This document shows positions 10,136 through 12,264 of a stretch of 64,000 nt of DNA, one piece after another (positions within the stretch are counted from its first letter, which is position 1; each line of letters begins with the position of its first letter). Below the pieces are notes generated by a model. That model had not been told where the DNA came from, did no database searches, and was given only the letters and a program-made list of their open reading frames with translations. Source of the DNA: an uncultured Spirochaetales bacterium (GTDB lineage Bacteria; Spirochaetota; Spirochaetia; Sphaerochaetales; Sphaerochaetaceae); assembly GCA_949285145.1 (NCBI GenBank), contig CASDXQ010000018.1, positions 1-64,000 on the forward strand, written 5' to 3'. The translations under genes were made by a program, and so were the position numbers.

Positions 10136-10254
10136 GAAAAACTCCTTATTGTTTTTTCAAGTCTATCACCATTTGTCTTTCTTGGATACATTTTCACATA
10201 TATTCTAAATATTTTATTATATTGAAAATAATTAAAAAAATACAAAAAAATTTG

Positions 10255-10284
10255 TTGACAACTTTCAAAATAGCCCTTTAAGAT
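10255..10284 (+). promoter_or_regulatory. Strong sigma70-type promoter of an orphan RNA
   Basis: A perfect TTGACA (10255-10260), an 18-nt spacer and TAAGAT (10279-10284), preceded by a very AT-rich tract (10201-10254) that could act as an UP element. Transcription would begin near 10291. No protein gene follows on this strand for almost 2 kb. Confidence 0.65.
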
Positions 10285-10290
10285 GTAAGC

Positions 10291-10525
10291 ACAGGGAGGC
10301 AATAGAGATAAGAACTCTAGCAGCTCATAAAAGAAAAAGCATCATAAGCCCATGATGGTGTGTAAACCGGAAAGGATAGCTTGGTGCTGATAGACATGAG
10401 CAGGCTGCCAGAATGAGAACAAAATCTCTATTATAAAGAACAAGCCTCCAGGACAGATGAGAGCCCGGACAATTGTTCATGAAGCAAAGTGAACGATAAA
10501 ACAGAAGTCCGGGCTGTATTTTTGC
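10291..10525 (+). ncRNA. Unassigned structured RNA of about 235 nt
   Basis: Starts just after a consensus promoter. GGAGGC+AATAGAGAT (10295-10309) pairs with ATCTCTATT (10424-10432) and GCCTCC (10444-10449), leaving an 11-nt bulge. The enclosed part has CAGCTCAT (10321-10328) facing ATGAGC...CTG (10396-10407) and a CATCAT/ATGATG hairpin (10340-10357). A separate 3' hairpin AGCCCGGAC/GTCCGGGCT (10462-10470, 10507-10515), with an inner GTTCA/TGAAC helix, is followed by GTATTTTTG, as in a terminator. No convincing reading frame is present. It does not match my recollection of RNase P, tmRNA, SRP or a common riboswitch. A 6S-like closing stem and bubble is conceivable, but the inner part looks branched. 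Confidence 0.55.
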
Positions 10526-10616: not shown

Positions 10617-10760
10617 GAGTGAACCTCCCCACATTATAGAATGTGGTGCTTCCCGCTACACGGCTCTTGCCGTGCCTGCTCCTTTAGGGAGCGGGGACTT
10701 CCCTTCCACCGCCTGGTCTTCTCTCAGTTCAAGCCGAAGCTCTCACCGCAAGAAGACTGA
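10617..10760 (-). ncRNA. Probable TnpB omega-RNA (reRNA) scaffold
   Basis: Overlaps the tnpB 3' end and runs to the right end of the element. Minus-strand hairpins in order: GCTCC-CTAAA-GGAGC, CACGGC-AAGA-GCCGTG, an enclosing CCCGCT/AGCGGG helix, and CCACATT-CTAT-AATGTGG. The scaffold ends in GGAGGTTCACTC (10628-10617), the position where known TnpB guide RNAs switch from element to flanking DNA. The guide would be the flanking bases read downwards from about 10616 to 10597. The 5' end is not defined by sequence alone. Confidence 0.6.
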
Positions 10761-12048
10761 TATAGGTGGACAGGGTGCATGTGGCCCGTGCGGATAAGCC
10801 TGGAACTTTTGCCTTGGCCTCCGACGCCTCCGTCTCCGGACACGTTTTCAAGGTTTCCCTTATGAAAAACCTTGATCCTATATTGTACGACGCCGACAAG
10901 TCGGTGTTGTACCTTTTTCCATTACTGAATGTGCACTGCGACCAGTTGTCTTTATCTCTCTTTACCTGACCAGAACCATCAAAGGCATACTTCGATGTTC
11001 CTGCTGCCCAGACCGTCGAGAATCTCATACCTTTTCTGTGGGCAAGTGCCTCCACTCGTTTTGCAACATCCTTCTTTCTCCACAGATGAAGCCGCTCCTT
11101 CTTTGAACCTTTCACCTTTCCTTTGATACTCAGCTTCTCCATGACAATCACTGAGGCTCCTTCAGATGAAGCAAACTCCACTATTGCTGAAGAAGTAAGC
11201 CTTGCAAGGTTCTCATTATGGTTCTTCAAAAACCGGTCCAGTCTGTATGTTCTGCACTTTGATAAGGAATGTGCCTTCTTTCTCTCATTCACAATCCGGT
11301 TGAAACGGTCTTCTTCTCCTGTGAAGGTGATGAACCTCCTTGCAGTGACAGTACCGTCCTCATTCATGATTGAGCAGACAGCCGCATTGTTGATGCCGAT
11401 GTCCACAGCACATATCGAATATTCCTTCTTATCCTTCTTTGGAAGCTCTGCATCCGTCTCAAAGGCAAAGGAAAGAGTGAAGCGATGTCCGTGCTTCTTC
11501 AGTACAGGACATTTCGCCTCTGACAGGTCGAACTCTTTTTCGATGCTCCTGACATCTGCCTGTGACAGCTCAAACACATGCCACTTCCAGTCACCATCCC
11601 TGAAGAGTTTAAGCCTTGCCATGTACACTCCATCCTTTTTATCGAGTATGAACATATTGTCCCTGTAGAAGGCAGGCATGACATTTCTCTTCCTCTTCAG
11701 GAATGGCTTCTTATTAAGCTTATCTGAAACTTCCCACTCTGCAAGGTTCTTCCTGTAGAGCGTGACGGCGGCAATCGCCTCCATGATCGCCGCACGGCGG
11801 AGATATGACGGAAGCTTGTGGAAGCGGGTGTCGAATGATGGATAGAGGGCCTGCCTCCTGGCTGTGGAATGCACGAACCTTTCGACAAGCGCCATTGCAC
11901 TGTGGGACTGAAACATACCGACTTCCTCGAAGTGATCCTCGGCAACACCGATGAGGAAGGAGACCGCTTCTTGATAGACTGTGACGGTATCCAGGAACGG
12001 CTTAAACGCGTCCTTTATCCTGACCTCTCTCGACACCATTAACTTCAT
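10729..12048 (-). CDS. tnpB: RNA-guided endonuclease TnpB (IS605 OrfB family)
   Basis: A 439-residue TnpB. The split RuvC nuclease triad is intact: Asp216 in CAVDIGINN, Glu304 in VIVMEKLS and Asp383 in RYNTDLSASYNI. The zinc ribbon between the second and third motifs is degenerate: the usual two CxxC pairs are replaced by TSKYAFDGSG and SQCTFSNG with one cysteine, as in a clostridial-type TnpB branch I remember. It should cut DNA next to a short target-adjacent motif using RNA from its own 3' end. A promoter with TTGTAA-17-TAGTAT ends 6 nt before ATG, with no Shine-Dalgarno. Confidence 0.9.
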   Translation of the reverse strand: MKLMVSREVRIKDAFKPFLDTVTVYQEAVSFLIGVAEDHFEEVGMFQSHSAMALVERFVHSTARRQALYPSFDTRFHKLPSYLRRAAIMEAIAAVTLYRKNLAEWEVSDKLNKKPFLKRKRNVMPAFYRDNMFILDKKDGVYMARLKLFRDGDWKWHVFELSQADVRSIEKEFDLSEAKCPVLKKHGHRFTLSFAFETDAELPKKDKKEYSICAVDIGINNAAVCSIMNEDGTVTARRFITFTGEEDRFNRIVNERKKAHSLSKCRTYRLDRFLKNHNENLARLTSSAIVEFASSEGASVIVMEKLSIKGKVKGSKKERLHLWRKKDVAKRVEALAHRKGMRFSTVWAAGTSKYAFDGSGQVKRDKDNWSQCTFSNGKRYNTDLSASYNIGSRFFIRETLKTCPETEASEAKAKVPGLSARATCTLSTYISLLAVRASA

Positions 12049-12054
12049 ATCTAA

Positions 12055-12083
12055 ATACTAGCATAAAAAAGAGATATTTACAA
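12055..12083 (-). promoter_or_regulatory. Candidate leaderless promoter of tnpB
   Basis: Minus strand TTGTAA (12083-12078), 17 nt, TAGTAT (12060-12055) with extended TGC, then 6 nt to the ATG at 12048. Confidence 0.5.
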
Positions 12084-12264
12084 TCAAAAACGCATTATTT
12101 TTTGCTTTCTCCACATCACAGAAGATGGAGACTGCGCGGTGGTATTGGGTTCAAACTTGCTTTAAAACTGCCGCTTTTATTATTCTCAGACTCTATTTCC
12201 CCCTCCCTGAGCTGAGAAAAAGCGGCGGCTTTTCAAAATCTGCTTCATGACTATAATCATTGTC

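Follow-up and report, generated by a model that had tools for sequence, protein, structure and literature searches.

Large bacterial RNAs whose folds are well conserved often serve basic functions, and comparison revealed many such families long before it was known what they do. Among the described systems closest to the locus considered here, 6S RNA (RF00013) resembles it as the product of a single autonomous noncoding RNA gene, of similar length, with a long closing helix and an interrupted rod. CsrB/RsmY-type RNAs hold a protein in trans, as the present RNA would. Hfq-dependent trans-encoded small RNAs share with it a promoter of their own, an intrinsic terminator and a conserved unpaired segment, but are usually smaller and less elaborately structured. 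The omega RNA of a TnpB element is its physical neighbour in this one genome. The locus occupies positions 10255–10525 on the plus strand of the window (the whole stretch of 64,000 nucleotides analysed). There the sequence reads as a TTGACA promoter leading into an RNA folded as a rod, with an intrinsic terminator at its end.

The RNA matches no catalogued family. At gathering scores Rfam returned a tRNA and nothing else across the whole window; when the threshold was relaxed, the RNA region gave weak, unrelated matches only (E up to 10) and eight homologous loci gave one irrelevant match (E up to 5). Models for tmRNA, RNase P RNA and SRP RNA matched neither the region nor the homologous loci, and ARAGORN reported no tmRNA in the window. 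The initial annotation, which had called the family unknown, is thus upheld by the Rfam check, with no credible match even at E up to 10. The RNA was likewise not found described in the literature, although the search reached few subscription papers and is therefore weak evidence of absence; passages of a structured-RNA survey of 26 genomes including Spirochaetes (PMC8632094) and of a small-RNA review (PMC9029176) hold no description that we could find, and the one mention of Aphodenecus came from a chicken-gut survey.

The locus resembles the gene of an autonomous, highly transcribed RNA. Its sigma-70-type promoter, TTGACA-18-TAAGAT (10255–10284, plus strand), found by sequence and by a promoter scan, comprises TTGACA (10255–10260), an 18-nt spacer and TAAGAT (10279–10284), and agrees with the consensus at 10 of 12 positions. 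Directly 5′ of the −35 box lies an A/T-rich stretch (10225–10254, plus strand) that may act as an UP element; A/T tracts precede the box, by eye, in most of the ten copies of the gene described below. The promoter match taken alone is weak, because a scan of 3 kb turned up 7 promoter-like sites where shuffled sequence yields 4.1 ± 2.0. A −35 box and a terminator are nonetheless seen in all ten copies, the box reading TTGACA in nine and TTGACG in G009. The promoter spacer (10261–10278 and its equivalents in other copies) is rather conserved, and in several copies (G001, G002, G005, G011) contains a small dyad like TTTC-GAAA, possibly an operator.

The predicted RNA runs from 10291 to 10523 on the plus strand, its 5′ end being placed from the −10 box and its extent by folding and by a covariance model match (10293–10461, 171.4 bits). 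It closes with an intrinsic terminator (10463–10523, plus strand; sequence and folding), a GC-rich hairpin with stem 10463–10470/10507–10514 followed by UGUAUUUUU, the T's lying at 10519–10523; in the other copies the terminator is kept, with base changes. A simple terminator scan did not list this hairpin, whose loop exceeds the scan's 8-nt limit. Several copies allow the terminator stem to be extended by UACA/UGUA-type pairing (within 10450–10523), which leaves GAUGAG as a bulge; this extension was not seen in G008 and G009. The promoter and terminator read from the window at the outset are therefore borne out at these positions. So is the absence of a reading frame: the longest closed ATG frame within the window RNA has 12 codons. 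A small encoded peptide was considered and rejected: the longest closed ATG frames vary among the copies, between 12 and 61 codons, and by eye suggest no common product. In the window, no annotatable plus-strand gene was seen after the RNA until an ArsN1/PPT-like acetyltransferase at 12247, in keeping with the earlier statement that no gene lies downstream on that strand. We infer that the RNA is expressed: transcription would begin at its own strong-looking promoter and end at its own intrinsic terminator.

The window RNA has a folding energy of −75.6 kcal/mol, compared with −49.4 ± 4.6 for shuffled sequences (z −5.7; 0 of 200 shuffles as low). Since the minus strand of the same region also folds well (z −3.65), folding energy alone is no proof of strand, which promoter, terminator and unpaired conservation indicate better. 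Single-sequence folding is also uneven over the ten copies, from z −6.1 in G000, the genome of the window, to z −1.0 in G015; folded alone, this last copy and that of G011 (z −1.6) do little better than shuffles.

The predicted fold is a rod, P1-P2-P3-P4-P5-P6, closed by P1, all of its parts lying on the plus strand. Pair counts on alignments place P1 at 10295–10300/10444–10449; the initial annotation had noted a long closing stem. The 5′ strand of P2 (10301–10309) pairs with 10424–10432, as judged by folding and pair counts, and double-sided change is present in 5 of 5 counted pairs. Within the 5′ strand of P3 (10315–10325), CUC pairs with 10415–10417 and GCAGCU with 10403–10408, the conserved A10319 standing in between; the 3′ strand of P3 and its internal loop span 10403–10417, with C10409 and A10413 invariant in the loop. 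The 5′ strands of P4 and P5 (GCAUC, AAGC, CC; 10339–10351) were placed by pair counts and alignment, and the 3′ strands of P5 and P4 (10374–10387) by pair counts; between them lies the P6 hairpin (10357–10368), whose loop GUGUAA reads GNGUAA in most copies. AGAC (10392–10395) is unpaired and conserved in 9 of 9 alignment rows. Just 5′ of the 3′ strand of P1 runs an A-rich single-stranded linker (AUAAAGAACAA, 10433–10443) of varying length, longer with AAAGAAC-like repeats in some copies and short in others; AAAGAA is in excess in six of the ten copies, which hold two or three, and is absent from four. The linker between P1 and the terminator (10450–10461) contains ACAGAUGAG at 10453–10461, which is invariant in all ten copies (the nine alignment rows plus G014), is single-stranded in the predicted fold and, adjoining the terminator, forms the longest invariant stretch of the RNA. 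In addition to ACAGAUGAG and AGAC, the unpaired invariant positions are A10293, A10319, A10336, A10402, C10409, A10413 and G10451.

Of the 16 Candidatus Aphodenecus genomes, 10 carry a copy of the gene. In a plain DNA search covering the window's own genome and 60 relatives, two genomes of the same genus matched strongly (98% and 95% identity) and four further genomes more weakly; one of these four, G054, belongs to another family, and its match falls within a protein-coding frame and seems, by eye, to be due to chance. The pdxA gene, divergent from the RNA in the window, served as an anchor for reading the same place in other species. A covariance model built from four copies (R1) matched nine of the 16 genus genomes at E 4.4e-7 or better, including, outside its seed, G012, G002, G011, G009 and G015. 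Because G012 is nearly identical to the window, the informative unseen copies are four: G002 (1.3e-17), G011 (1.2e-13), G009 (1.9e-8) and G015 (4.4e-7). The tenth copy, in G014, was recognised by its promoter, linker, terminator and position, its model score being only 12.3 bits. No copy was found in G003, G004, G006, G007, G010 or G013 (completeness 94, 92, 96, 97, 86 and 62%, respectively); eight perfect 11-nt linker sites in G006, G010 and G013 were rejected, since no site combines the terminator with a suitably spaced TTGAC box.

A search of 139 genomes from 22 genera of the family, run with the stricter filters applied above 40 genomes, yielded no convincing match in other genera (best E 0.14 with R1 and 0.58 with model R2). 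In a tree of the TPR protein encoded beside 6S RNA, available for 10 of the 16 genomes, one branch parts five RNA-bearing from five RNA-lacking genomes with modest support (85/85). A scan of a genome collection, in which an exact pattern blind to some variants could miss a more distant relative, found seven stretches, six of them in spirochaete records, including Candidatus Aphodenecus pullistercoris; the seventh, in an Acidobacteria record, gains no support from the model (13.5 bits). No copies turned up in collections of phages, plasmids and viruses. The RNA is restricted to one branch of the genus.

Across the alignment rows, which are 54–98% identical, copies at 54–58% identity still keep the fold. 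In alignment A5 (nine rows fitted to R1 and the hand-drawn structure, G014 being left out), double-sided change is found in 17 of 35 pairs, as against 7.3 ± 1.8 in shuffles (none of 500 reaching that number), and paired cells make up 93.5%, as against 84.6%; when partners are slid by 1–3 columns, pairing falls to 28–45% and double-changed pairs to 1–5. Counts on A5 lean towards the structure, and we therefore recounted on A1, a plain MAFFT sequence alignment of eight rows that serves as an unfitted control. Here 13 of 34 pairs show double-sided change (shuffles 6.2 ± 1.6) and 82.6% of cells are paired (shuffles 74.8%; 31–50%, with 3–7 double-changed pairs, after sliding by 1–3 columns); P4 is partly misaligned in A1, at some cost in signal. 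Other seed alignments were dropped, MAFFT having shifted P1, P3 or P4 in some rows. Natural selection thus appears to have maintained the fold in a single branch of uncultured spirochaetes of the gut. That an intergenic region should fold this way by chance is conceivable in principle, promoter-like and hairpin matches being common in AT-rich spacers, but conservation across species with compensatory changes leaves that explanation hardly any probability. The call for homologues and covarying pairs that accompanied the initial annotation is answered by the ten genomes and by compensatory changes above shuffles, and its orphan structured RNA is supported by covariation, by conserved promoter and terminator and by the lack of an Rfam match. 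From these comparisons we hold with high confidence that the locus encodes a real, autonomous structured noncoding RNA.

The likeness to 6S RNA raises the question of whether this could be the 6S RNA of the lineage, too diverged for Rfam. A long closing stem, a promoter of its own and a similar size speak for such an identity, as does the failure of Rfam's 6S model to give a match above its cut-off anywhere in the genus (0 of 16 genomes); in the family the same model scores above cut-off in 8 of 139 genomes and at E up to 0.1 in 46 of 139. Eleven sub-threshold Rfam 6S matches are present in the genus, ten of which were compared with ten better loci from the family (L023 was left out), and a gene for a TPR protein flanks all 20 compared loci. 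A 6S model built from 12 family sequences (R3) recognises 6S RNA at every one of the 10 genus loci tested, G000:C33 among them, at E 1e-22 to 6e-16, and so finds the 6S RNA of the genus that is missed at Rfam's cut-off. The window's own genome carries its 6S RNA at G000:C33:15440-15623 on the minus strand (locus L021), beside the TPR-protein gene, as in nine other genomes of the genus; this locus scores 12.0 bits with the Rfam model, below cut-off, versus E 2e-21 with the family-built model. In contrast, R3 finds nothing at E up to 10 in eight loci of the present RNA, RF00013 has no match in the region (E up to 10) or in eight homologous loci (E up to 5), and the RNA lies at pdxA/guaB or elsewhere, outside the conserved TPR-gene neighbourhood of 6S RNA. 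Unlike a 6S RNA, then, it coexists with a separate 6S gene and is matched by neither 6S model; an identity with 6S RNA has next to no probability, and the earlier suggestion of a 6S-like regulator is refuted as family membership by a genuine 6S RNA at another locus.

The TnpB element (about 10617–12149) lies between the RNA and the acetyltransferase gene, with tnpB on the minus strand and no tnpA seen among the listed frames. With only about 90 bp separating the two, the RNA might be imagined as the element's omega RNA or as another part of the transposon. The RNA lies outside the element on the opposite (plus) strand, as had been noted from the start, whereas the omega RNA belongs to the element's right end on the tnpB strand. 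Moreover, G012 carries a 98% identical RNA with no TnpB beside it and represents an unoccupied site, both flanks of the element standing side by side, two bases apart; by eye, the other copies also have no TnpB-like neighbour among their predicted frames. TnpB is a later insertion beside an RNA that exists independently of it, and a link between the two is the least probable of the explanations considered. The three guesses first offered for this locus accordingly part ways: a new small RNA stands, whereas membership of the 6S family and a part in a transposon-linked system, the latter refuted by the G012 site, fall.

The usual gene order is pdxA (minus strand), the RNA (plus), the acetyltransferase (plus) or another gene, and the IMP dehydrogenase gene (minus), genes in other genomes having been named by eye from predicted frames. 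With its conserved core and the terminator behind it, the locus is laid out like a riboswitch, and the RNA could accordingly be a cis-acting leader, a riboswitch or attenuator whose terminator controls the gene downstream, mostly the ArsN1/PPT-like acetyltransferase. In G008, G009 and G014 that gene indeed comes next, on the strand of the RNA; in G000 it lies beyond TnpB, in G015 its start can be seen after the terminator, and in G002 and G005 it is found further on. Yet in the window TnpB separates it from the RNA; in G008 and G009 it is preceded, past the terminator, by its own promoter-like sites; a different gene, which we take from its appearance to be an AzlC-type permease, comes next in G002 and G011; and the next gene is convergent in G001, G012 and G005. 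Overall, about half of the copies are followed by the acetyltransferase, directly or with TnpB in between, two by another gene and three by a convergent gene. In G001 (L010) the RNA lies about 11 kb from pdxA, by eye among transporter and regulator genes, and this copy keeps its own promoter and terminator. The RNA is independent of any one neighbour; with such varied genes downstream, some of them convergent, a role as a cis leader is improbable.

An action in trans is, by contrast with a leader function, strongly expected. CsrA was detected in none of the 16 genus drafts by a search positive in three control genomes, and Hfq in none of the 16 by a search positive in five, drafts being a setting in which genes and small proteins can be missed. 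A sponge for CsrA was rejected on this ground and because GGA counts lie near shuffled means: unlike in CsrB/RsmY-type RNAs, GGA motifs show no clear enrichment (exceeding shuffles by about 1.9 SD at most), and the predicted folds place most of them in pairs. An Hfq-dependent small RNA is not favoured either, given the non-detection of Hfq.

Two modes of action in trans remain to be weighed, of which protein binding has, in our estimate, an even chance of being the main one. The transcript would fold into the P1–P6 rod, carrying conserved nucleotides in internal and hairpin loops and leaving ACAGAUGAG single-stranded; acting in trans, it would bind a protein through its internal loops and the linker, so as to sequester or scaffold it. 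Two observations lead us to favour this mode: the conserved unpaired bases are distributed among several loops of the rod, and in four species a perfect complement of the 11-nt linker is confined to the gene itself. Against it, CsrA and Hfq, the partners that would first come to mind, went undetected in all 16 drafts. The main rival is base pairing in trans, in which ACAGAUGAG, the GNGUAA loop or the A-rich linker would act as a seed for one or more mRNAs or a stable RNA. The longest invariant stretch is unpaired and stands beside the terminator, and its frozen sequence would be explained because a seed meeting many targets would be held fixed. In a genome-wide search for perfect 11-nt matches, complements of the linker occur outside the gene, on either strand, in G001 (5), G005 (2), G008 (2) and G015 (1). 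However, they occur only at the RNA gene in G002, G009, G011 and G014, and a reversed 11-nt pattern gives control counts of the same order; within the window the 9-mer complement has two matches, one being the gene itself, against 1.15 expected. The non-detection of Hfq also counts against base pairing, as does a conserved and elaborate fold that exceeds the needs of a seed. Base pairing is the less probable mode, though quite a plausible one. Protein binding remains the preferred reading, and the full statement, an autonomous noncoding RNA of about 235 nt with its own promoter and terminator that acts in trans and most likely binds a protein, we rate at slightly below even when all its parts are taken together.

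The RNA is well delimited, it occurs in bacteria in which Hfq and CsrA went undetected, and its invariant ACAGAUGAG motif makes its mode of action testable. More tentatively still, it may represent a new class of regulatory RNA in one branch of Candidatus Aphodenecus, forming the core of an RNP in which a dedicated, uncharacterised protein would recognise the internal loops and ACAGAUGAG. If that is so, these bacteria would possess a global regulator in the apparent absence of both Hfq and CsrA.
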